A program made the translations under genes and the position numbers. 21,384 bases of DNA from a virus, in IMG/VR virus record IMGVR_UViG_3300009093_000136, positions 1-21,384 of that record. One strand, 5' to 3'. This document shows, piece by piece, positions 213 through 19,454 of the stretch (within the stretch, counting starts at the first letter, position 1; every line of letters starts with the position of its first letter). The notes under the pieces are model-generated. The model was not told the origin of the DNA and did not search any database. It saw nothing but the letters and a program-made list of their open reading frames with translations.

Positions 213-980
213 CTACTTAATATTATTAATTAATTTCCACAAAGTAACCAAAACTTTAAACTGTTTTAATCCTTTATTCAATTCTAATTCAGACCATTCA
301 TGTAAATAAATTTGTCCAGGTACTATAGAACTTATTACCACATTATAACATCTAGCTTTTGCTAATTTTAAACCCAATCTATATGCGGCTAATTGAATAC
401 AATAATCAAAGTATAAACAAGTCTTATCTACTATTCCTTTTTCTTTAGTCTTAAAATCTAAAATAACGATATTTTTTTTATTTCTTCCAATTAAATCTAC
501 CTTTCCTCCGAAGCCTAGCTTGTGCCCAAAACTTTTTTCTGACTCCCAATGATACTCTGGGAAAGTTTCATGTAATTTAGAGATTACGGGAACTAAAAGA
601 TCTTTATCCTTTTCATCTACTAATTTATATTTAAAATACCGCTCTAATTTATCATGAACTTCTGTACCTCTTTTTGAAGCTTTATTCCAAGTTATGGTAG
701 CTTTATCTAATACTTCTTTTTTCCATTGATTAACTTTTTCTTTATCTTCTGTAATTTCTAAAAAGTCACTGTTAGGTATTTTTGAAGCTTCCTTTAAAAG
801 AATATTTAATTTCCAAGTTTCTATAAATGGTTTAGATACTAAACTTAATATCCCGGTAACTCCAGGAAACCAATTATACTTTTTAGCATCTGCTAATGTG
901 GTGGCCCTCTTAATTGTACTATTAACTTTTTTAATTTCATAATGACAATTACCTTCTAGATCATACCAATGAGTAGCCAT
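213..980 (-). CDS. PD-(D/E)XK exonuclease, RecB/Cas4-like
   Basis: 255 aa. The RecB-type nuclease motifs appear in order: a GTEVHDKLE helix with His109, GGKVDLIG with Asp162, VILDFKTK with Asp175 and Lys177, and a QLAAY motif (Gln196, Tyr200). Together these are the metal-binding and catalytic residues of the PD-(D/E)XK superfamily. Phage enzymes of this type act as 5'-3' or single-strand exonucleases in recombination and host DNA breakdown. No Cys cluster for an iron-sulfur centre is visible, so it is closer to RecB-like phage exonucleases than to true Cas4. The start at 980 has a good Shine-Dalgarno (agaaggaaagat before ATG). It sits between the ClpP block and the endonuclease VII-like gene. 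Family is confident; exact biochemical role is inferred. Confidence 0.85.
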   Translation of the reverse strand: MATHWYDLEGNCHYEIKKVNSTIKRATTLADAKKYNWFPGVTGILSLVSKPFIETWKLNILLKEASKIPNSDFLEITEDKEKVNQWKKEVLDKATITWNKASKRGTEVHDKLERYFKYKLVDEKDKDLLVPVISKLHETFPEYHWESEKSFGHKLGFGGKVDLIGRNKKNIVILDFKTKEKGIVDKTCLYFDYCIQLAAYRLGLKLAKARCYNVVISSIVPGQIYLHEWSELELNKGLKQFKVLVTLWKLINNIK

Positions 981-1258: not shown

Positions 1259-1807
1259 TTAAATTACTTTATCTATAATGCCATATTTCTTAGCTTCTTC
1301 CGCAGTCATCCATAAATCTAATTCTGTATCTTTTGATACTTTTTCAAATTTTTGATTTGTGTCTTGACTTAATAAGGTATTTAATAATTTTTTAATTCTG
1401 GCAGTCTCTTTTGCATGAACTTCAATATCAGTTGCCTTTCCAATATATCCAGAAGAAGGTTGATGAATCATAATTCTCGCATTTTTAGAAGCCGTCCGAT
1501 GTCCCCTTTTCCCAGCACCTAATAACACTGCCCCCATACTAGCTGCCATGCCAGTACAATGAGTATAAATAGGTACTTTAGAAGTTTTTATAAAGTCGTA
1601 TAAAACTAGTCCATGGTCTACAGAACCTCCTGGAGAACATATTTGTAATGTTATAGGTGTTGTTTTCTGAGTACTTAAAAACTCTAATAATAATAAAGTG
1701 TCTACACTAGAACATTCACCTACTGCATAATGCAGTTTAACTATTCTAGTTCTCTGTGCATGATAAAGAGTAAGTTGGTTAAAATTTGCAAACTTAAAAG
1801 GTTTCAT
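1259..1807 (-). CDS. ClpP-like serine peptidase
   Basis: 182 aa, close to the usual 190-200 of bacterial ClpP without its propeptide. The fold landmarks are in order: CSPGGSV (oxyanion glycines 60-61), GMAASMG with nucleophile Ser90, RIMIHQPSSG with His115, and ELDLWMTAEEAKKYGIID with Asp164 as the third triad member. All three catalytic residues are therefore present. ClpP forms a double heptameric chamber that degrades proteins fed by an AAA+ unfoldase. Phage ClpP relatives often act as prohead proteases, but this gene lies in the replication operon beside SSB, far from the head genes, and the same operon carries a ClpX relative. A regulatory or host-directed role is therefore more likely (inference). 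A strong GGGGAGGAG precedes the start at 1807. Confidence 0.9.
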   Translation of the reverse strand: MKPFKFANFNQLTLYHAQRTRIVKLHYAVGECSSVDTLLLLEFLSTQKTTPITLQICSPGGSVDHGLVLYDFIKTSKVPIYTHCTGMAASMGAVLLGAGKRGHRTASKNARIMIHQPSSGYIGKATDIEVHAKETARIKKLLNTLLSQDTNQKFEKVSKDTELDLWMTAEEAKKYGIIDKVI

Positions 1808-1856
1808 ACTCCTCCCCTATGAGTATTTAAAATAATAAGATAAGGTTCTAATATAT

Positions 1857-2282
1857 TTAATCATCTAATAAACTTAGATTTTTAGGTTCATAAGGTATCA
1901 AATTCAAAATTTGAACTGTATCTAACCCTAAACTAGTTCCTGTTTTAGATTTAAATTTCCATTCAAATAAATGAGTAATTACTTTTACATCTGACCCATT
2001 TCCAACTAATACAGAGGAAGGAAATTCATTTTTATCACTATCTAAGAGTTTTGGAGGAGATAAAATTTTACCATCTTTAGTTTCATAAGCCTTTGTTAAG
2101 GTAACAAAATCTCCACGAATATCATTTTTATTCTTAATTGTTACTCCCACAGATAATAATTTATCTACAGTTTCTTGATCAATACTTAAATCCATTTGAT
2201 ATTTTCCTGATAATTCATTGGGAGTATTTGCTCTTAGATAATAAGCTTTCCCCGTTAATGTAAATTGTTTTGTGTCAGTCAT
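1857..2282 (-). CDS. Single-stranded DNA-binding protein, T7 gp2.5-like
   Basis: 141 aa. The N-terminal strand region (GKYQMDLSID) and the C-terminal block (SVLVGNGSDVKVITHLFEW, then TSLGLDTVQILNLIPYE) match the gp2.5-type OB-fold proteins, in which a glycine-rich GxGSxxKV strand is followed by a conserved final strand. The last residues, LSLLDD, form a short acidic tail ending in hydrophobic and acidic residues. In this family that tail binds the polymerase and helicase. The gene sits downstream of the polymerase genes, as expected for a replisome protein. It is shorter than T7 gp2.5 (about 230 aa), mainly because of the short tail. The assignment rests on motif pattern recognised by eye. 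Confidence 0.75.
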   Translation of the reverse strand: MTDTKQFTLTGKAYYLRANTPNELSGKYQMDLSIDQETVDKLLSVGVTIKNKNDIRGDFVTLTKAYETKDGKILSPPKLLDSDKNEFPSSVLVGNGSDVKVITHLFEWKFKSKTGTSLGLDTVQILNLIPYEPKNLSLLDD

Positions 2283-2292
2283 ATCTACCTCA

Positions 2293-2586
2293 TTAAAATA
2301 ATGATTTATTAAATTCTATTATATAAGTTGGAAAATCTTTATTAAGTGGGTTATCTCCTTTTTTTTCTGTAATTTTAAATAGTTTAGTTTGTGTTAAATT
2401 AAAAATAAAATTTATTAAAAATAACATTAAATGGGTAGAAGTTAAAAATTTATCTTTAATAACATATTCAGTAATAGATTTAGCTTCTTTATAGACTAAA
2501 GAATATGTATTCTCTCTAAAATCATGAGTAATATAAAGATATATTTTTAATACATCTTCTGATAAAACATTATGATTATAAATCAT
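2293..2586 (-). CDS. Hypothetical protein (97 aa)
   Basis: No family is recognised. The frame is open from ATG 2637, but the ATG at 2586 is preferred: it has GGAG 9 nt upstream (within the 3' end of the polymerase gene) and reduces the overlap with that gene to 11 nt, typical of coupled phage genes. The protein (MIYNHNVLSED...) is rich in Leu, Ile, Phe and Lys. A hydrophobic stretch near residues 52-63 (HLMLFLINFIFNL) could be a buried helix or a weak membrane segment. It sits between polymerase and SSB, so a replication accessory role is possible but unproven. Confidence 0.6.
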   Translation of the reverse strand: MIYNHNVLSEDVLKIYLYITHDFRENTYSLVYKEAKSITEYVIKDKFLTSTHLMLFLINFIFNLTQTKLFKITEKKGDNPLNKDFPTYIIEFNKSLF

Positions 2587-3838
2587 ACCAAGATTCTCCA
2601 GTAGAAACTTCAATTTTAATAGGAACTTTAAATTCATAATTAAACTTCTCTATACTTAGTATAGCAACGTCTTCTAATAATGTCAAATCTTTTTTTGCAT
2701 CTTCTTCAAATTCTTTTTTACAATCCAACATCAAAGAATCATGAATTGTATTAATCATTAAATATTTATTTCTATTGTATATTGCTTTTTCTCTCCAAAA
2801 TTTACCAATCATACTTAAAACAATAGTTGCTGTAGCAAATCCTTGAGTTCTAAAATTTTGAATTTCATTGGGACTATAACTAGCCTCAGATTGCCATTTA
2901 AATTTAGGAGGATATTTTTTAAACTTATATATTCTTCCCCAAGGATCAGTATAAAAACCTTTTTGCTGAACCTCTGACCGTAACCAATCATAATATTGAT
3001 GCAATCGTGGGTATGTTTGACATCTTTTTTGTTTTAAATCTTTAACTTCTTCTATAGATAATCCAGAATTTTCACTTACTGTTTTATTCCCTGCACCATA
3101 TTGAACGCTAAAAGTAAAAACTTTTATTTGTCTTCTAGCTTCTTTTAATTCTCCAGTTTTAACTTTTTCAGAAATTAAATTATAATTTTGTTTAAGTTTT
3201 AAAGCTAAATTTTTTGTATGAGGATCAATATTATTTATAATATCATTTATTGCTTCTATATCTCCAGACATTTGAGCTTCTATTCTAGGTTCTATTCCAG
3301 AATAATCTGCAGAAATTAGAAGTCCTTTTGGAATAAATTGATCATTTTCAAATAAAGGTTTTCCATTAAATCTACTTATATAATGTTGAGTTACTTTTGA
3401 ATCTCCTTGAGGTACATTTTGAATATTCGGATTTTTACAACTGAGTCTCCCAGTAGCAGTGGCTGTAGTATTAAATTGAGAGTGAATTAGTCCATCAGAG
3501 TAAATTAGATTTTCTACAGATGTATAATAAGTACTTAATTGTTTTTTTAAATCTCTAAATTCTAATATTAGCTTGGCAATTTCACCAGAAATTCCTTTAT
3601 TTTTAATTAATACATTTAAAACTTTTTCTCCAACGGAATAAATTCCTTCCTTTTTTGTTTCCCAATCTTCTTTAGCTTTAACGCCTAATCCAGATATATT
3701 TTTCAAAATTTTAACTTTTTTAGTTCTTGAGTTTCCATTTTTATAAAATCCATTTTGTTGAATTTCATCAATTAATAAGAACCCTCCAAAAAAAAGAAGA
3801 CTTAAATGTTGTGGGGAGTTAACATTAAATTTAATCAT
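2576..3838 (-). CDS. DNA polymerase A, polymerase domain only (split gene)
   Basis: 420 aa carrying the palm, fingers and thumb of a family A polymerase without its exonuclease domain. Visible motifs: TATATGR at 125-131, motif A ADYSGIEPR at 177-185 (metal-binding Asp178), motif B (O-helix) ARRQIKVFTFSVQYGAG at 234-250 with Lys239, Phe243 and Tyr247, and motif C NTIHDSLML at 363-371 (Asp367). The residue equivalent to E. coli Phe762 / T7 Tyr526 is Phe243. The protein begins with FNVNSPQHLSLLFFGG, which is where the polymerase domain begins in intact relatives. The exonuclease domain is a separate gene (4064-4756), and 230 plus 420 aa roughly equals one intact phage enzyme. Its ATG lies 1 nt after the TGA of the intervening Cys-finger gene, so translation is probably coupled. 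Both parts presumably assemble in trans. Confidence 0.93.
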   Translation of the reverse strand: MIKFNVNSPQHLSLLFFGGFLLIDEIQQNGFYKNGNSRTKKVKILKNISGLGVKAKEDWETKKEGIYSVGEKVLNVLIKNKGISGEIAKLILEFRDLKKQLSTYYTSVENLIYSDGLIHSQFNTTATATGRLSCKNPNIQNVPQGDSKVTQHYISRFNGKPLFENDQFIPKGLLISADYSGIEPRIEAQMSGDIEAINDIINNIDPHTKNLALKLKQNYNLISEKVKTGELKEARRQIKVFTFSVQYGAGNKTVSENSGLSIEEVKDLKQKRCQTYPRLHQYYDWLRSEVQQKGFYTDPWGRIYKFKKYPPKFKWQSEASYSPNEIQNFRTQGFATATIVLSMIGKFWREKAIYNRNKYLMINTIHDSLMLDCKKEFEEDAKKDLTLLEDVAILSIEKFNYEFKVPIKIEVSTGESWYDL

Positions 3839-3839
3839 A

Positions 3840-4016
3840 TCACAATACCCATTTTATATAATAAAAAAATTTTTTATATTTCAGTAATTCATTTTTAAAT
3901 TGATCCTCTAAAGTCTCTTTTTTTATTTCATTGCAACTCTGACATATACTCGAAAAATGAGCTAATGGATGATTAGAAAGTACATACTTTTTATTACATC
4001 TAACACAGAAATTCAT
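3840..4016 (-). CDS. Cys-finger mini-protein lying between polymerase halves
   Basis: A 58-aa product if translation starts at ATG 4016 (MNFCVRCNKKY), which has GGAG 7 nt upstream; an in-frame ATG at 4037 would add 7 residues. Two CxxC knuckles (CVRC and CQSC) about 20 residues apart suggest one structural zinc site, followed by a Lys/Glu-rich helix (residues 32-50) and an aromatic tail. It fills the gap between the 3'-5' exonuclease gene and the polymerase-domain gene, ending 1 nt before the polymerase start. It may be a remnant of an HNH homing endonuclease that split the polymerase gene, or a zinc-binding bridging subunit. Neither is proven. Confidence 0.65.
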   Translation of the reverse strand: MNFCVRCNKKYVLSNHPLAHFSSICQSCNEIKKETLEDQFKNELLKYKKFFYYIKWVL

Positions 4017-4063
4017 TTTACTACTCCATTTATTCATTAGTTTTCTTTATAATAAAATTATAT

Positions 4064-4756
4064 TCATAACCAATAATCCCGAACTATATTTAATAATTCT
4101 TTTTCTTTCTCATGTAGCTTAATTTCTAACTCTACTTTATTCTTATCAAGAATTTTCCTATCAAGGTACATACCATTCATAGTCATTTCAATTGTAGATA
4201 GTAAGGCATCTTGTTGTAACTCTATAAAGTTAAATAACTTTAGTTCTTGAACTTTCTTGTATTGTTCTAGAAATATAACTTCAGTATCTAATACATCATC
4301 TTGAACATCAGTCAATACTAAATTTTTAGGTATTTCTGAAGTACTTTGCCCCTGATCCCAGTAGGATTCCATCAATTTTTCTCTTTCTATACACCCATAT
4401 TTGTTTACTGCAATGTCTCTCAAAGCTGGATATTTATGTTCTTGCCCTGTTAACATATACTCTACTAAAGATGTATCCCAAATTCTTCCCCCACGTTTAA
4501 AAAATTTCTGTAAATCATCCAAATGCCAGAACCATTGTAAATCATGACTTAAATTATGCCCTACTATTAAATCTTCATCAATCCTGAACTCTTTTAAAAT
4601 ATCAGGATAAATATATTGTGTCCAAAGTTCCTGAGTATTCTTTAATCCTATAGCAACTAACTCATCACCATTTAAAGGTGTCCCTGCTTCTCTTCCCATT
4701 TGTTTAGATTTTTCACTTACATTATTTTCAATGTCTATTACTAAATAAGGAATCAT
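4064..4756 (-). CDS. 3'-5' exonuclease domain of family A DNA polymerase (split gene)
   Basis: 230 aa DnaQ-like proofreading domain. Exo I is VIDIEN (Asp8, Glu10). Exo II is GHNLSHDLQWF (Asp72), with IWDTSLVEYML following as in phage polymerases. Exo III falls around TDVQDDVLDTEV (149-160); the Tyr expected there in T7-like enzymes appears to be Thr149, so proofreading strength is uncertain. The protein ends KELLNIVRDYWL, matching the last helix before the polymerase domain of T7-like enzymes, so the break lies at the domain border. Start: GGAG 6 nt before ATG, and the ATG directly follows the TAA of primase-helicase (TAAATG), implying coupled translation. It probably associates with the separate polymerase domain. 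Confidence 0.88.
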   Translation of the reverse strand: MIPYLVIDIENNVSEKSKQMGREAGTPLNGDELVAIGLKNTQELWTQYIYPDILKEFRIDEDLIVGHNLSHDLQWFWHLDDLQKFFKRGGRIWDTSLVEYMLTGQEHKYPALRDIAVNKYGCIEREKLMESYWDQGQSTSEIPKNLVLTDVQDDVLDTEVIFLEQYKKVQELKLFNFIELQQDALLSTIEMTMNGMYLDRKILDKNKVELEIKLHEKEKELLNIVRDYWL

Positions 4757-6439
4757 TTATCTCTCCAAAGTAAATAAATCATTTAAACTATTTAACTGTC
4801 CTGTGGATTCATTATAATATAGTTCATCTACATATCCAGATAATCCAGTAATTCTATTAGCTAAAACACTTAATTTTATTTTATTTTTCTCTCCTTCATC
4901 TACCATATTTCTTTCTACAGAGATCATTACATCACATAATTGTTCAAATGCAGCAGTACCTTTAAAATCCCGCATAGTTACTTTTCTTCCTTCACAATAA
5001 TCTTTCCCCATATCAGCCCTACTTAAATGACATACACACAGTATAGTAAATTTTAATTGTTTTGTCAATAATGTAAGACGTTTTAAAAACTTTTCTATAT
5101 CTTTTCTTTCCCCAGATTTTGAATCCATATCATAAATAAACATATGAATAGGATCAAGAATAATTAATTTACATTTATTTCCTAATACTAAAAATTTAAT
5201 AGCATTAATAATCTCATTAGAATCTAAGGTCATTTTACTTATATCTACTACTTTAATTCTATTAGATTTAATATATTTATTATAAGTATATTGAAGTCTT
5301 TCTTCTGAAACCAATTCAGGATTTTCTTTAAATTTATATAAAAGCATATTATTATCCAAGGCAACTAATCCTTGTACAAACTTTTTAGCAGACTCTTCCG
5401 CAGAACATACTCCTATATTTAATTTAGAATGTTTATCTATTAAATTTTTAATAAAGACTTGTTTACAGATAGTAGTTTTACCTATTTTTGCTCCTGCTCC
5501 TAAAAGCCATAATTCCCCTTCTTCTGTATTAATTCCTCTTAAATATTTATTTAAAATTGGCAATGATAAAGATAATCTGGGAGAATCTTTTTTAGAAATA
5601 TTTATCAAGGTTTGATTCTCTAAATAATCTGGTTCATATAATTGATAATTATTTAAATCTTCAAGTAATTCTAATTGTTTTCCTTTTTGAAGGTATTCAT
5701 TAGGATCTTTATATCTTAATTTAGTTATATAACATTTTCCGGGAGTAAATAATTTAGCAATTTTTATTTGAGTTTCTTGACCTACTTTATCATTATCAAA
5801 TACTAAAATAACCTTTTCAAATTGTTCTAAAAATTCTAAATGTCTTTTAATTTCAGACTCTGTTTGATCTCCTGCACCTGTAGAGATAGAGACTGTATTA
5901 ATAATTCCAATTTCTGCAAGTGACAAACAATCGAGTTCTCCTTCTGTAATAAAACACTCATTCTTTGTCGATCCTTTAAGTAAAGCTCCGTTAATTCCAG
6001 ATATAATTCTACCCTGTCCGAATAATTGCTTGTCATTTGAATTTTGTCTCCAAATAAAACTTTTATTATCAAGAAATCTAATTTTTTGACTAATTATATC
6101 TCCATTTTTATTAGTATAATTATAAATATGTACTTTTTTTCCATTTATATTAGAAGTCTGCATTAAATATTTTCTACAAATTTCTTCACTAATTTTTCTA
6201 TCCTCAAGATTTTCATAAACTCCATTAGTAATTAATTCATTAGAAATGATTTTACTTGTAATCAATTCTTTATCCATTTCTGTTCTTTTCGATTCATTAT
6301 ATTGCTCTTTATTATTGTTTCCTTTACATTGTGGAGTCATACATTTACTTTTTAATATACCAGTATCCGAATAAAACCAGCAAAGATTATTTTTTGAATT
6401 ACATTCAATACAATTAGTTCTTTTAATCGTGGCGCCCAT
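4757..6439 (-). CDS. Primase-helicase, T7 gp4-like
   Basis: 560 aa, close to the 566 of T7 gp4. N-terminal zinc-binding region: Cys10, Cys13, Cys33 and Cys38. A TOPRIM primase domain follows, with ITEGELDCLS (Glu166 and Glu168) and VFDNDKVG (Asp215, Asp217) for metals. The RecA/DnaB-type helicase domain has Walker A GAGAKIGKTT at 314-323, a Walker B strand LIILDPIHMF, and CVCHLSRAD as the conserved motif 3 region. The enzyme unwinds the fork and lays down RNA primers for the polymerase. It is intact, unlike the neighbouring polymerase. The start at 6439 lies 3 nt after the small zinc-finger gene and uses the TGAGGA in its end. The exonuclease gene follows directly. Confidence 0.95.
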   Translation of the reverse strand: MGATIKRTNCIECNSKNNLCWFYSDTGILKSKCMTPQCKGNNNKEQYNESKRTEMDKELITSKIISNELITNGVYENLEDRKISEEICRKYLMQTSNINGKKVHIYNYTNKNGDIISQKIRFLDNKSFIWRQNSNDKQLFGQGRIISGINGALLKGSTKNECFITEGELDCLSLAEIGIINTVSISTGAGDQTESEIKRHLEFLEQFEKVILVFDNDKVGQETQIKIAKLFTPGKCYITKLRYKDPNEYLQKGKQLELLEDLNNYQLYEPDYLENQTLINISKKDSPRLSLSLPILNKYLRGINTEEGELWLLGAGAKIGKTTICKQVFIKNLIDKHSKLNIGVCSAEESAKKFVQGLVALDNNMLLYKFKENPELVSEERLQYTYNKYIKSNRIKVVDISKMTLDSNEIINAIKFLVLGNKCKLIILDPIHMFIYDMDSKSGERKDIEKFLKRLTLLTKQLKFTILCVCHLSRADMGKDYCEGRKVTMRDFKGTAAFEQLCDVMISVERNMVDEGEKNKIKLSVLANRITGLSGYVDELYYNESTGQLNSLNDLFTLER

Positions 6440-6442
6440 AAT

Positions 6443-6568
6443 TTAATCCTCAGAAATATTTAAATCATTTAAATTATCTAAATATTCTTTAAAACATTTT
6501 GAACAAAATTCTTCATCTATTTGTAAATCTTTGTTAGTTAATTTTTTATCACAAGCGATACACCTCAT
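6443..6568 (-). CDS. Zinc-finger mini-protein (41 aa)
   Basis: The frame starts at ATG 6568 with GAGGG 8 nt upstream and stops with TAA 3 nt before the primase-helicase ATG. It begins MRCIACDKKLTNKDL and continues with CSKCF at about 22-26, so there are two CxxC pairs forming one treble-clef-like zinc knuckle, followed by an acidic helix (YLDNLNDLNISED). Small proteins of the MxCxxCxxxLT...C..CF pattern are common in T7-like marine phages next to replication genes; this is recalled from general knowledge. Function unknown; a replication-linked DNA-binding or adaptor role fits the position. Confidence 0.75.
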   Translation of the reverse strand: MRCIACDKKLTNKDLQIDEEFCSKCFKEYLDNLNDLNISED

Positions 6569-6591
6569 TTAAATACCCTCATTAAATATGA

Positions 6592-7209
6592 TTAATTATC
6601 ATAATTATCATCTACAACTGGATTTATATCTAACTCTTCTAATCTTGTTATACTTAATTTTTCTAATACTTTTCTACTTTCAATAATTAAATTTTCTATT
6701 AATTGAGCCTTTTTTAAATCTAAAATTGATTTTCTTTCTTCTTTTAAGGATTCAGTCCGGGAAAATTTATTTAAATCAATTAATTCAGCATTTTTCAGAA
6801 TTTGTTGTGTTATTAAATATTCTACTTCCTGAATTAACCCTCTAATGCCCAAATCACTTTGAATAGCCTTATCAATTAAATCTTCTTTAGGAACAAGAAA
6901 TTTTATATCTAGCCTTCTTAGTAATTCTATCCATTGATTTAATACAAAAAATTCAGAATTTAATATTTTTGTATATGTTTTTCTAGTTACTTCATCAAAT
7001 TCAATAATTTCTTGGATTCTTCCTAATAATTCTGGTAACATACCATAATTTTCTAAATCTTTTAATAAAATTTCTTCACTTTGTTTACTTTGATTAAATC
7101 CAATAGATTGATTTTTTTTGATTTTTAAATCTTGAAAAGCCCCAGCAAAAACAAACATCCATTCTTTAGTATTAACTTGTATTTTTAATTCTTTAAAATT
7201 AACATTCAT
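6592..7209 (-). CDS. ClpX-like AAA+ unfoldase, C-terminal part
   Basis: 205 aa from ATG 7209. The same frame stays open upstream to 7266 and encodes a further 19 residues homologous to ClpX (SRTLQSTILKYVEG), directly behind an in-frame TAA. Features in order: sensor 1 strand WMFVFAGAF (17-25), an IGF tripeptide (36-38) at the position of the ClpX loop that docks on ClpP, box VII GMLPELLGRI with probable arginine finger Arg64, and sensor 2 LGIRGLIQEVE with Arg123. These are the essential ClpX elements missing from the upstream fragment. The ribosome binding signal for 7209 is poor (GAGGG only 1 nt from ATG), so translation as an independent gene is doubtful. The product may depend on readthrough, or the gene may be broken. 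Confidence 0.8.
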   Translation of the reverse strand: MNVNFKELKIQVNTKEWMFVFAGAFQDLKIKKNQSIGFNQSKQSEEILLKDLENYGMLPELLGRIQEIIEFDEVTRKTYTKILNSEFFVLNQWIELLRRLDIKFLVPKEDLIDKAIQSDLGIRGLIQEVEYLITQQILKNAELIDLNKFSRTESLKEERKSILDLKKAQLIENLIIESRKVLEKLSITRLEELDINPVVDDNYDN

Positions 7210-7266
7210 ACCCTCTACATATTTTAAAATAGTAGATTGTAACGTTCTACTTATATTTTCACTACC

Positions 7267-7269
7267 TTA
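7267..7269 (-). other. In-frame TAA interrupting the ClpX-like gene
   Basis: The TAA (complement of 7267-7269) separates two parts of one continuous reading frame. Upstream codons end with the Walker B segment FIDEFDKFVTPIYS. Downstream codons continue GSENISRTLQSTILKYVEG without a frame change and with ClpX-like spacing. The only difference from an intact gene is this one codon. TAA, TAG and TGA all end other genes here, so general code reassignment is unlikely. Nonsense mutation, sequencing error or local readthrough remain possible. Confidence 0.9.
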
Positions 7270-7668
7270 TGAATAAATTGGAGTTACAAACTTATCAAAT
7301 TCATCAATAAATATTATTATTCTATTAAAATCTATTTTTTGAATAGACGAATTTAATTTAATACACTCTTCTTCTATTAAGTTTAAAAAACTTTTTCCAC
7401 TCCATCCTTCTTGACAAATAGCTTTTGAGTTAAGTTCTATTATCGGAATATTAAATATTTTAGCAGCTTCTCGTACTAAATATGTTTTTCCTACTCCTGA
7501 ATTACCTATAAATAAACAAATAGTACTTGAATTAAATTCACAAGCAAAATCTGGTGCATATTTTTTTATTAAATATTTATAATAAATCGTACAAAATTTA
7601 TCTATACTTTTGTCTTGGCCTAACACTTTTTGTTTTAAAGTTTTTCTCAGTTCTATCAAAGATTTCAT
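7267..7668 (-). CDS. ClpX-like AAA+ unfoldase, N-terminal part
   Basis: 133 aa, ending at the in-frame TAA. It lacks the zinc-binding domain of bacterial ClpX and starts directly at the AAA+ core: VLGQDKSIDKF (the conserved GQ.xAI region), Walker A GNSGVGKT at 55-62, pore loop 1 GWSG at 88-91 (GYVG in ClpX, here with Trp for Tyr), and Walker B IIIFIDEFDKF at 117-127. ClpX hexamers grip substrates with the pore loop and thread them into ClpP. Alone, this fragment lacks sensors 1 and 2, the arginine finger and the ClpP-docking loop. Those are encoded in the same frame just after the stop. The operon also contains a ClpP-like gene. AGGT lies about 8 nt before the start. Confidence 0.85.
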   Translation of the reverse strand: MKSLIELRKTLKQKVLGQDKSIDKFCTIYYKYLIKKYAPDFACEFNSSTICLFIGNSGVGKTYLVREAAKIFNIPIIELNSKAICQEGWSGKSFLNLIEEECIKLNSSIQKIDFNRIIIFIDEFDKFVTPIYS

Positions 7669-8086: not shown

Positions 8087-8761
8087 TTATTGATTTATAA
8101 AATGTAAGTATTCAACGATTTCTAAATGTCCATTTTCAGAAGCCCATCTTAAAGCATACTCATCTTCTGCATGAATATTAGCTCCTTTTTTAATTAAATA
8201 TTTAACTACTTCTAAATGTCCATATTGAGACGCCAGTCTTAAAGCATACTCACTTCCTGCATGAATATCAGCTCCTTCTTGAATTAAATATTTAACTATT
8301 TCTAAATGTCCATTTAGAGACGCCCGTCTTAAAGCATAATTATTTTCAGCATGAAGATCAGCTCCTTCTTGAATTAAATATTTAACTATTTCTAAATGTC
8401 CATTTAGAGACGCCCATTTTAAAGCAGCATTCTTTCCAGCATGAATGTTAGCCCCTTCTTTTACTAATTCCTTAATTACTGTTAATGTTATTTTTTTAAA
8501 TTTACCTAATATAATTTTATTAGCTTTATATTTAATTGGTTCTTTTGGATTTTTATATATTTTAGAATCTTTTAATAAACTTACTTCAGAAATATAACAC
8601 CCATAATCTAAAAAAGCTAAAATATCTTCTTTAGCAAAATAAATCCCTCCTGGTGTACAATCTCCTGAAGGATTAAATTCAATAGGATCTTGAATTATTC
8701 CTGGATTATAGGATAAATTATGATGTTTTTTCTCTTTATTAATTATTTTATAATATTTCAT
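8087..8761 (-). CDS. Ankyrin-repeat protein with Mimivirus-like N-terminal domain
   Basis: 224 aa. Residues about 1-85 form a distinct domain (HHNLSYNPG, FNPSGDCTPGGIYFAKED, ILAFLDYG, ANKIILGKF). Its pattern resembles the N-terminal domain that precedes ankyrin repeats in Mimiviridae proteins; this is recognised from memory and not checked. Residues about 96-221 hold four ankyrin repeats of 30 residues (YALRxASxNGHLEIVKYLIQEGADIHA), a 30-residue period like the giant-virus type. Ankyrin repeats bind proteins and are common effectors in bacteria and viruses of eukaryotic cells, but rare in phages. AGGAG precedes the start. It may act on host proteins or on the bacterium's own eukaryotic host; the latter is speculation. 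Confidence 0.85.
   Translation of the reverse strand: MKYYKIINKEKKHHNLSYNPGIIQDPIEFNPSGDCTPGGIYFAKEDILAFLDYGCYISEVSLLKDSKIYKNPKEPIKYKANKIILGKFKKITLTVIKELVKEGANIHAGKNAALKWASLNGHLEIVKYLIQEGADLHAENNYALRRASLNGHLEIVKYLIQEGADIHAGSEYALRLASQYGHLEVVKYLIKKGANIHAEDEYALRWASENGHLEIVEYLHFINQ
8267..8415 (-). repeat. Tandem 90-bp repeat inside the ankyrin gene
   Basis: The 59 nt at 8267-8325 recur identically at 8357-8415, an offset of 90 bp, which is one 30-residue ankyrin unit. Units further out are more diverged. Exact identity over 59 nt suggests recent duplication or gene conversion, so repeat number may vary between related phages. Confidence 0.85.
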
Positions 8762-8770
8762 TTTTAACTC

Positions 8771-9118
8771 CTAAACTTCTTTAATAAAAGTAAAAATCCT
8801 TTCACCAGTATTATTTAAATAAGTTTTCATTAATTTAGTATTACTAATATGTTTTTTAACTGTCTTTTCTTTTGTAGTTGTATAATATATGCAAATCCCA
8901 AAATGATCTTTCAACCAATTTTGAATTAAATCTAATGCTTCTTGTTTCGATATATTAGTTATTTGAGTATAATCTAACCATAAATCAAAGATTCCTTTAT
9001 AATCTTGTTTTTTTAATTTAACTGCTTTTTCTAATTTATGCACATCTGGTACCCATCTATAAAAATCTATTTGTGTAACTAATATATTATTTTCTAATTC
9101 ATTTAAGTCGGCGCTCAT
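8771..9118 (-). CDS. Hypothetical protein, first gene of leftward operon (115 aa)
   Basis: No family recognised. Charged and mostly helical in appearance: MSADLNELENN..., a WLDYTQ segment, KQEALDLIQNWLKDHFG, and a basic C-terminal half (TTKEKTVKKHISNTKLMKTYL). The start at 9118 has AGAGG 8 nt upstream. As the promoter-proximal gene of the replication operon it would be made first, a position often taken by host take-over or regulatory proteins. No helix-turn-helix or zinc motif is evident. Confidence 0.65.
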   Translation of the reverse strand: MSADLNELENNILVTQIDFYRWVPDVHKLEKAVKLKKQDYKGIFDLWLDYTQITNISKQEALDLIQNWLKDHFGICIYYTTTKEKTVKKHISNTKLMKTYLNNTGERIFTFIKEV

Positions 9119-14950: not shown

Positions 14951-15724
14951 ATGTCAAGTATTCCAACTCAATTAAATTTAAATGAAATGTCTCAGTCAGA
15001 TCTATTAGATCTAGCAAAAGCATTTCAAGTACTTGATGAGAAAAAGCAGTATAATAAACTAGATTTTGTATTTCCTAGATACTTAGCTAATAAAGAAGGA
15101 TACAAAAAACATTTAATATTTATGAAGGCGGGTTCTATTTACAAAGAACGGGCTTTAATTGCTGGTAACCGTACAGGAAAAACATATACTTCTATGGCTG
15201 AAGTAGCTTTTCATGTAACTGGGAAATATCCAGAAGGTTGGGAAGGAAAAAGATTTGAAGGTCCGATAGAAGCTTGGGTGGTAGGTAAAACTCATGAAAC
15301 TACTAGGGATATTCTTCAAAAGTATCTTTATGGAAATTATTTAGATCCCGGAACTGGATTTATTCCTAGAGTGGATATTATTCGTAAAACTACTAAATCT
15401 GGTATTCAAGATGCAGTACAAGATCTTTATGTTCAGCATTATGATGAAAAGGGGCACAAAGACGGAATTAGTCATTTAAGTTTTAAGTCATATGTACAGG
15501 GTATAGAAGCCTTTATGGGAGCACAAGTGCACGTAGTAGGATTAGATGAGGAGCCTCCTGAGCGTGGAATATATTCAGAATGTGTGACTCGTACAATGAC
15601 TACACAGGGAATCATTCTTTGTACATTTACTCCATTAGAAGGATTGAGTGAAGTAGTTTTGAGTTTTCTTCCAGGTGGAAGGTTCCCAATGGGGGGAATA
15701 GGTCCAGTAGAAGAGGTTTTATAA
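14951..15724 (+). CDS. terL: Terminase large subunit, ATPase part (split gene)
   Basis: 257 aa containing only the packaging motor domain. Walker A AGNRTGKT at 71-78, then GPIEAWVVGKTHETTRDI, Walker B HVVGLDEE near residue 199 with the catalytic Glu after it, and the coupling motif LCTFTPLEG near 222-230. It stops after GGIGPVEEVL. Intact relatives continue from that GIGPV region into the KFVV...W.D.PHL start of the nuclease domain, which here is a separate gene (15973-16725). 257 plus 250 aa make a normal full-length large terminase. The stop overlaps the next start (TAATG) and the last codons contain an AGAAGAGG ribosome binding site for it, so the split looks stable and not like fresh decay. 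Confidence 0.92.
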   Translation: MSSIPTQLNLNEMSQSDLLDLAKAFQVLDEKKQYNKLDFVFPRYLANKEGYKKHLIFMKAGSIYKERALIAGNRTGKTYTSMAEVAFHVTGKYPEGWEGKRFEGPIEAWVVGKTHETTRDILQKYLYGNYLDPGTGFIPRVDIIRKTTKSGIQDAVQDLYVQHYDEKGHKDGISHLSFKSYVQGIEAFMGAQVHVVGLDEEPPERGIYSECVTRTMTTQGIILCTFTPLEGLSEVVLSFLPGGRFPMGGIGPVEEVL

Positions 15725-15972
15725 TGTCTAGACCAATAACGCAGTCTGAATATTATCAAACTCACTTTTATCATGGAAAGAAAGATCGTAATAGATTTTA
15801 TCATGTTTTAGAATGTGATATTAGACTATTATCTAGTGAAATTCTAAGACTTTCCAAAATGCCTTATTCCTCTTGGAGAAATAAAGAGAAAATCATATCT
15901 TTAGATAAGCAAATTCAATATATGGAAGAATTATTAGCTGCTTATGAAAGAGATCAAAAAAGGGGATCCTAA
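15724..15972 (+). CDS. 82-aa protein inserted between the two terminase halves
   Basis: Not recognised. MSRPITQSEYYQTHFYHGKK, then a helical region rich in Leu, Ile, Lys and Glu (DIRLLSSEILRLSK and KQIQYMEELLAAYERDQKRG) likely to form a helical hairpin. It begins at the TAATG overlap with the ATPase gene and ends with TAA directly before the ATG of the nuclease gene, in the same frame as the nuclease; readthrough of that TAA would give a fusion. Its position in the linker of the terminase suggests either a helper that joins the two halves or a foreign gene that split the terminase. No intein, LAGLIDADG, GIY-YIG or HNH motif is visible. Confidence 0.75.
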   Translation: MSRPITQSEYYQTHFYHGKKDRNRFYHVLECDIRLLSSEILRLSKMPYSSWRNKEKIISLDKQIQYMEELLAAYERDQKRGS

Positions 15973-16725
15973 ATGGCTAAATTTGTTGTTAATTTAACTT
16001 GGGAAGATGCTCCACATTTATCAGAAAATGATAAAAAAGAACTATTAGCATCTTATTCACCCCATGAACGTGATGCACGTAGTAAAGGTATTCCTCAATT
16101 AGGTGCAGGAGCTATTTACCCTGTAGTAGAGGGGGATATTGTAGTAGAAGCTTTTAAAATTCCAGATCATTGGCCTAGAGCGTATGCTTTAGATGTTGGT
16201 TGGAATAAAACAGCAGCTTTATGGGGGGCTTATGATGCTAAATCAGATATTTGGTATCTTTACTCTGAATATTATAAAGGACAAGCAGAACCTTCTACTC
16301 ATGTAAATGCTATACAAGCCCGTGGAGCATGGATGTCTGGAGTAATTGATTGTCATAGTAAAGGAAGAGGCCAAGCTCATGGGGAACAATTAAGTGTTTT
16401 ATATGAAAATTTAGGTTTACGACTAGGATTAGCTTTAAATGGTCCGGGAACTTTAGAACCTAGCATTTTAGAGACATTTCAAAGATTAGTTAGTGGTAGA
16501 TTAAAAGTTTTTTCTCATTTATATAATTGGTTATCTGAATTTCGAGTATATAGACGAGATAAAAATGGAAAGATTGTAGATGAGAATGATCATTTAATGG
16601 ATTGTACTAGATTTTTAATTACTTCTGGGCATTTAGTTATGGATGTTCCTCCAGAAGAAGATGCTGATGATGCTAAAATTACTCGCCCATATTATCAAGG
16701 GCAATCACCTGTTTGTGGATACTAA
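15973..16725 (+). CDS. terL: Terminase large subunit, nuclease part (split gene)
   Basis: 250 aa. It begins AKFVVNLTWEDAPHLSEND, the usual linker into the nuclease domain, and has SPHERDARSKGIPQLGAGAIYP, then the RNase H-like catalytic Asp residues: Asp74 in YALDVGWNKTAALWGAYD, Asp126 in GVIDCHSKGRGQ and Asp206/Asp210 in ENDHLMDCTRF. Position 126 is followed by Cys where relatives usually have Pro-Ala-Ala. The domain cuts the DNA concatemer at packaging start and end. GGGGA lies 7 nt before the start, which directly follows the TAA of the 82-aa gene. It must work in trans with the separate ATPase subunit. Confidence 0.92.
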   Translation: MAKFVVNLTWEDAPHLSENDKKELLASYSPHERDARSKGIPQLGAGAIYPVVEGDIVVEAFKIPDHWPRAYALDVGWNKTAALWGAYDAKSDIWYLYSEYYKGQAEPSTHVNAIQARGAWMSGVIDCHSKGRGQAHGEQLSVLYENLGLRLGLALNGPGTLEPSILETFQRLVSGRLKVFSHLYNWLSEFRVYRRDKNGKIVDENDHLMDCTRFLITSGHLVMDVPPEEDADDAKITRPYYQGQSPVCGY

Positions 16726-18909: not shown

Positions 18910-19144
18910 GAAATTTATTGAGATTTTAATAGAGATTTATACAGCTAATAAAGAAGATGTAATACAAACAATTTTAAATTCAAGTGCCGAAGATATAAAG
19001 AATAAACAAGGAAGATTAATACAACTAAAAGGACAGATCCATGTTATAGAAAGACTTTTAGATTTAAAAACATTTCTAATAGAAGAAATACAGGAGGAAT
19101 ATGAGATACAGAGTGGTGGGGCCAAGAGTTTTAGTGAAGATTAA
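18854..19144 (+). CDS. Hypothetical protein after portal (96 aa)
   Basis: Starts within the portal 3' end at ATG 18854, with AGAGGG 8 nt upstream; another in-frame ATG lies at 18884. The protein is helical and acidic (KFIEILIEIYTANKEDVIQ, LIQLKGQIHVIERLLDLK, LIEEIQEEYEIQ). It overlaps the next gene by 44 nt. Small helical proteins between portal and scaffold are common in P22-like and GTA-like phages, often of unknown role in head assembly. No motif allows more. Confidence 0.65.
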   Translation: MEQITPDQITMWSNHPITKKFIEILIEIYTANKEDVIQTILNSSAEDIKNKQGRLIQLKGQIHVIERLLDLKTFLIEEIQEEYEIQSGGAKSFSED

Positions 19145-19454
19145 AAAAGCAGATGAAAAGTTTGAGGGATCAACATTAATTCGACCAGATACAAGTTTAG
19201 ATAAAGATACTAGACATCAAAGTACTGGTGTAATTGAATATATCGATGAAGAATACAATAAAGATCAATTAATGAAATTAGGAGATACAATTCATTTTTC
19301 CAGATATGCTGCAGTTAGATTAAATCCAAAAGAAAATGAAAGTTATGAATTTTGGGTTTTAAATATTAAAGATATTTTATGTATTGAATATGAACCCACA
19401 GAAAAAAGTGGATTAGCAAGTTCAAAAAATTATTTAGAAGATTTTAAAATATAG
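19101..19454 (+). CDS. GroES-like co-chaperonin
   Basis: 117 aa; bacterial GroES is about 97. The Cpn10 pattern is present: GPRVLVKIKKADEKFEGS (start of the beta barrel), a mobile-loop region about 20-38 with the hydrophobic STLI at 24-27 that would dock on GroEL, STGVIEYI (41-48), KLGDTIHFSRYAAVRL (59-74) and the final strand DILCIEYE (91-98), followed by a 19-residue extension. A strong AGGAGG precedes the start. The gene stands directly before the scaffold and capsid genes, so, like T4 gp31, it probably adapts host GroEL to fold the large capsid protein. No GroEL is encoded here, so it must use the host one. Confidence 0.88.
   Translation: MRYRVVGPRVLVKIKKADEKFEGSTLIRPDTSLDKDTRHQSTGVIEYIDEEYNKDQLMKLGDTIHFSRYAAVRLNPKENESYEFWVLNIKDILCIEYEPTEKSGLASSKNYLEDFKI

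Follow-up and report, generated by a model that had tools for sequence, protein, structure and literature searches.

Two Clp-type genes in the replication operon of a tailed phage that are probably not fitted to each other

Known Clp systems and how the locus compares

Three sets of bacterial mutants bear on the reading given here. When the equivalent patch residues of M. tuberculosis ClpP2 are changed, assembly and peptidase activity are kept while degradation driven by ClpX or ClpC1 is abolished (PMC4416901); the R192K change in E. coli ClpP abolishes ClpX binding (PMC7112951); and a Tyr-to-Ala change of the pocket tyrosine in ClpP opens the pore in an ADEP-like manner (PMC8182300). Bacteria also build mixed barrels, such as M. 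tuberculosis ClpP1P2, with one partner that takes no part in ATPase binding (PMC4416901). On the viral side, jumbo phages with their own sets of Clp proteins have been published (Atu_ph07, PMC6102473; PMC7824862; AP-J-162, PMC11242549).

The two genes considered here lie in a window, by which we mean the whole stretch of DNA that was analysed, that is an entire IMG/VR record of 21,384 bases and probably a genome fragment. Its ClpP resembles bacterial ClpP (C. difficile ClpP1, 6mx2; S. aureus; E. coli) in fold (TM 0.90), in sequence (38-45% identity) and in its triad, but differs in having neither the residues of the IGF pocket, nor R192, nor an axial segment of full length. Its ClpX-like frame has the AAA+ core, IGF loop, sensors and predicted fold in common with bacterial ClpX (PRK05342/TIGR00382), but has neither a zinc domain nor an RKH loop, carries a tryptophan in the pore-1 loop and is interrupted by a stop codon. 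As in the jumbo-phage sets (Atu_ph07, AP-J-162 and our loci L481-L541), one genome holds both a ClpX and a ClpP, although the loci of jumbo-phage type studied here encode an ordinary ClpX and a pocket-keeping ClpP about 5 kb apart. Three small phages (L409, L423 and L476) have a ClpX of the same diverged subfamily together with a ClpP in the replication region, but there the ClpX frame is intact and the ClpP keeps its pocket. Finally, the ClpP-like proteins of four related phages (G030, G031, L309 and L310) share with the window's ClpP an intact triad, the missing pocket and a place in the replication operon, but belong to a separate ClpP-like clade and are not orthologous to it.

Our preferred reading, to which we give a probability of roughly 0.55, is that the two Clp-type genes of this tailed-phage replication operon are mutually unfitted, with a ClpP that would act without a Clp ATPase and a ClpX gene that is interrupted.

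Organisation of the operon

All genes from position 9118 down to 213 point the same way, on the minus strand. The series opens with small ORFs and a gene for an ankyrin-repeat protein; the ClpX-like frame and a zinc mini-ORF follow, then a T7-type primase-helicase and a family-A polymerase in two pieces, the exonuclease part included, and it closes with a single-stranded DNA-binding protein, clpP and a PD-(D/E)XK nuclease (Table 1). The earlier note was right to place both Clp-type genes in a replication operon. Homologues of the nuclease are placed after the polymerase in two relatives (L326 and L333). The polymerase (2576-4756) is split around a 65-residue ORF; the gene is uninterrupted in G030, G031, L309 and L310 and is split also in L305. 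Promoter and terminator scans of the window gave signals not clearly above those of shuffled sequence.

Genes on the plus strand include those for a holin, TerS, a split TerL, a portal protein and GroES, and by portal and terminase the phage falls into a large group with Alcaligenes phage vB_Af_QDWS535 and uncultured Manatee Spring phages. The large terminase consists of two genes around an 82-residue ORF, a homologue of which is present in L050; the terminase of G029 is also split, with a 4-nt overlap, and that of G030 and G031 is a fused gene. The GroES co-chaperonin sits in the structural module and is found in several related phages too, one of which (G029) also encodes a 526-residue GroEL (20943-22523).

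Table 1. Coordinates of the principal features of the window
Feature	Position	Strand	Basis or remark
PD-(D/E)XK nuclease, downstream of clpP	213-980	-	PF12705, E 7e-7
ClpP-family serine peptidase, 182 aa	1259-1807	-	PF00574, E 9e-54; triad intact
Single-stranded DNA-binding protein (gp2.5-like)	1857-2282	-	phrog_112, E 7e-7
Polymerase half of split family-A DNA polymerase	2576-3838	-	PF00476, E 1e-53
Zinc-finger/HNH_5-like ORF, 65 aa	3840-4037	-	between the polymerase halves
3'-5' exonuclease half of split family-A DNA polymerase	4064-4756	-	weak PF01612 match, E 0.003; aligns to exonuclease part of relatives' one-piece polymerases
T7-type primase-helicase	4757-6439	-	Pfam DnaB_C, Toprim_2, Helic-prim_T7_N; shares operon with clpX-like gene and clpP
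C-terminal part of ClpX-like frame, 205 aa from first ATG	6592-7209	-	sensor 1, IGF loop, arginine-finger region LPELLGR, sensor 2
TAA stop at codon 134 of ClpX-like frame	7267-7269	-	in frame, interrupting the ClpX-like gene
N-terminal part of ClpX-like AAA+ frame, 133 aa	7267-7668	-	Walker A, GWSG pore-1 loop, Walker B
Ankyrin-repeat protein	8087-8761	-	early operon
Large terminase, split	14951-16725	+	two genes
ORF of 82 aa	15724-15972		within the terminase split
GroES co-chaperonin	19101-19454	+	structural module

A genuine ClpP with an altered docking face

That the window encodes a genuine ClpP is clear. The protein scores 182.5 bits against PF00574 (cut-off 20.2), and its catalytic residues are exactly Ser90, His115 and Asp164, as the earlier note had them; against the NCBIfam equivalog model TIGR00493 it reaches 159 bits, below the cut-off of 308.6. 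The AlphaFold model has a pLDDT of 90 and finds bacterial ClpPs as its matches in the PDB, and 50 of 74 near-invariant columns are kept (the reference used for the bacterial comparison and the fold model, 1259-1804 on the minus strand, lacks Met1 and is numbered one lower, and the alignments made for structure prediction leave out some rows). The start codon is fixed by a TAG that lies in the same frame four codons before the ATG and by the strong ribosome-binding site GGGGAGGAG. By analogy with its bacterial counterparts, the product is probably an active, self-assembling serine peptidase. The nearest of these share about 43-53% identity with it and come mostly from Bacteroidota and Lachnospiraceae, and we rejected the idea of naming a host from such matches, which are too distant and biased by peptide patterns.

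Where a Clp ATPase would dock, the residues have changed. Over a gapless stretch of alignment, Y62, F82, I90 and L114 of mature E. coli ClpP become Q, T, H and S. Among near bacterial ClpPs, by comparison, position 62 is a tyrosine and position 114 a leucine in 79 of the 79 that could be aligned (80 were taken), and the IGF-docking pocket is kept in 44 of 45 phage proteins drawn from large phages or from loci with a ClpX (41 of the 45 come from loci of the latter kind and four from elsewhere). Only these four pocket positions are firm, since position 60 varies among bacterial proteins too and the alignment is ambiguous at positions 23 and 49 (one alignment places a phenylalanine of the window's protein against F49). 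The chain also stops before the position of R192, a residue that is arginine in only 28 of the 80 near bacterial proteins. At the other end, R27 is preceded by 20 residues, where E. coli ClpP has 26 in its mature form and 40 in the precursor; an axial segment this short occurs in just 2 of 125 other sequences, and the first predicted helix begins at about residue 11. Judged from its residues, the protein is without the hydrophobic IGF-docking pocket, without R192 and without a full axial N-terminal gating loop, that is, without the features that mark a ClpP as dependent on Clp ATPases.

A ClpX-like frame interrupted by a stop codon

The ClpX-like motifs that had been reported for the second gene are all located in the frame running from 7668 to 6595, with Walker A at 55, GWSG at 88, the Walker B stretch IFIDEFDK at 119, IGF at 189, LPELLGR at 211 and GIRG at 274, so that an AAA+ core with Walker A/B, sensors and arginine-finger region is present. 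The N-terminal zinc-binding domain is indeed absent, as the earlier note had said, and so is the RKH loop. The frame is very diverged, scoring 101.6 bits, below the curated ClpX cut-off of 359, but its best families are still ClpX (NCBIfam PRK05342, E 4e-29; TIGR00382, E 2e-22); the refuting condition named in the earlier note, a best match to some other family, did not arise.

What had been taken for a single open frame is, however, divided by a TAA into ORFs of 133 and 205 residues, with 19 in-frame ClpX-like codons between the stop and the second ORF. In all, 224 codons after the TAA are open and ClpX-like, for which the chance at the given base composition is about 5e-12, and this means that the stop is of recent origin, is bypassed or results from an assembly error; the last is possible, the sequence being a metagenome assembly. 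The stop falls in a predicted loop of low confidence past Walker B, and the model of the read-through protein (pLDDT 82) finds ClpX chains of ClpXP as its PDB matches, with the IGF loop at low confidence. Several ways of rescuing the gene were considered and rejected. Recoding of TAG as glutamine or of TGA as tryptophan does not join the halves; a sense reading of TAA is unlikely, given how many genes in the window end in it, the ClpP gene and the ClpX frame among them; and a designed split with restart at the ATG at 7209 is unlikely too, since the nearest SD-like GAGG is only about 2 nt upstream, and such a restart would also lose a predicted helix (137-152). Little or no working motor is expected from the gene as it stands. 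Close relatives by peptide pattern were not found in IMG/VR, and in the ClpX tree the window's sequence sits on a very long branch, so its placement there is unsure.

Because the ClpX frame is stopped and the ClpP has lost a pocket that all but one of the compared phage ClpPs keep, the two proteins are probably not a cognate phage ClpXP. As far as the residues tell, the interface is damaged on both sides, and the idea of a phage ClpXP in this genome is left unsupported.

Relatives and co-occurrence of the two genes

A small subfamily of phage ClpX, with neither zinc domain nor RKH loop but keeping IGF, MGF or IGL, is found in nine relatives (L313, L326, L333, G029, L394, L395, L397, L409 and L423; in L313 and L333 the gene is cut at the contig end), and L476 and L510 are assigned to it by sequence similarity. 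In L313, L326 and L333 its gene immediately precedes helicase and polymerase, an order close to that of the window; ClpP was not found in these records, which are fragments. Conversely, G030, G031, L309 and L310 have a ClpP-like gene between helicase and polymerase and gave no ClpX match in the records searched. Both genes, the ClpX of the small subfamily intact and the ClpP bearing its pocket, occur in the replication region of L409, L423 and L476, and some 30 loci on large-phage contigs have an ordinary ClpX and an ordinary ClpP separated by about 5 kb, in agreement with the published jumbo phages. Pairs of this kind are not unusual in these collections, contrary to the impression given by the earlier note. 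That note had also held that relatives keeping one gene without the other at random would speak against a pair; such relatives do exist, but mostly as genome fragments. Among 90 related records, a small and fragmentary basis for judging co-occurrence, ClpX occurs in 4, a ClpP-like gene in 6 and both in 1. With relatives carrying either gene, singly or jointly, near helicase and polymerase, phage clpX and clpP are, to judge from these comparisons, separable parts of replication regions that at times form a matched pair.

Other arrangements were seen along the way. L472 (14644-15826) has adjacent clpP genes. The first is ordinary; in the second the pocket is altered, the five positions tested reading YKIAF, and the duo resembles ClpP/ClpR pairs. 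In L476 (1753-4060) a ClpP-like gene whose product has a hydrophobic N-terminus is followed by clpX and next by a clpP that shares 4 nt with clpX, and a polymerase-like gene is close by. Proteins of ClpP/SDH type recur in this group of phages (G029, G030, L309, L310, L394, L395 and L476), several with apparent signal peptides, and often in phages that also carry the small ClpX. In the large-phage contig L482 (3651-15974) there is a proteostasis cluster of DnaK-like, ClpX, small-heat-shock-like, ClpS-like and ClpP genes, assigned by sequence reading, with BLAST on ClpX and ClpP only.

How the two proteins may work, and the alternatives

Lacking its pocket, the arginine that would hold a ClpX/ClpA loop, and some of its N-terminal gate, the window's ClpP would work without a Clp ATPase, and by analogy it is most likely an ATPase-independent peptidase that would degrade peptides and unfolded or nascent chains. 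It should be uncoupled and perhaps gate-open, an expectation drawn from the bacterial mutants, and its pore may even be permanently open, as in ADEP-activated ClpP. For the small ClpX subfamily, we propose that the ancestor and most relatives dock on a pocket-bearing ClpP of host or phage, and that the window's gene was broken by a single, apparently recent stop codon. The takeover of host ClpP by the ClpX-like protein, as the earlier note suggested, is possible, because the IGF or MGF loop persists in relatives, including three contigs in which ClpP was not found, and the window's ClpX, if made at all, would seem to suit host ClpP better. Docking of the subfamily even on host ClpP may nevertheless be weak, given that the V274 position is mostly without a hydrophobic residue, the window's being non-hydrophobic as well.

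The strongest competitor is a functional phage ClpXP that destroys host or defence proteins, in which the stop would be an assembly error or be read through and the docking surface would have diverged. In its favour are the shared operon, the long open frame beyond the stop, the ClpX fold predicted for the read-through product, and the three small phages that pair the same ClpX subfamily with a pocket-bearing ClpP, and some other contact could compensate for the lost pocket. We nonetheless consider it unlikely, since the pocket and R192 are lost, the axial loop is incomplete and the assembly has a stop codon. A bolder extension of our preferred reading would make the phage ClpP a self-activated enzyme that, with tyrosine and gate lost, mimics acyldepsipeptide activation and breaks down nascent host proteins in early infection, with host ClpP being commandeered by the IGF-bearing ClpX-like proteins of relatives; this is argued from analogy and strikes us as doubtful. 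Less probable still is a ClpR-like role, in which the phage subunit would join host ClpP barrels and block or redirect docking of host Clp ATPases: mixed barrels are known from M. tuberculosis, and L472 sets an ordinary ClpP beside one with an altered pocket, but the triad is intact here, and a pure decoy would have no need of it.

Two further readings are very improbable. A head-maturation protease located by chance in the early operon would agree with the PHROG matches, mostly of that class (phrog_94, E 3e-39), but among the NCBIfam models the ClpP proteolytic subunits lead (E 2e-52), with ClpP-related head maturation well behind (E 2e-23), clpP lies on the opposite-strand replication operon, distant from portal and scaffold, and four related annotated phages (OK172329, MW202796, MW202785 and OQ401624) have no PF00574 match, so that neither its best profile match nor its position relative to capsid genes puts it in that class. 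Decay of both genes into functionless remnants, which the interrupted ClpX and eroded ClpP interface might suggest, is hard to square with a ClpP that keeps its ORF, ribosome-binding site, catalytic residues and most near-invariant columns, and with a ClpX still open past its stop, IGF and sensor 2 included.

Significance

Phage ClpX-ClpP pairs are already known. A family whose motors retain the docking loop, but in which the peptidase of one member has lost the matching socket, would offer a simple sequence rule for telling partner from solo Clp proteins in phages. The window's ClpP would, in addition, allow a clean test of whether an unregulated ClpP serves a virus in the way that it serves ADEP antibiotics.
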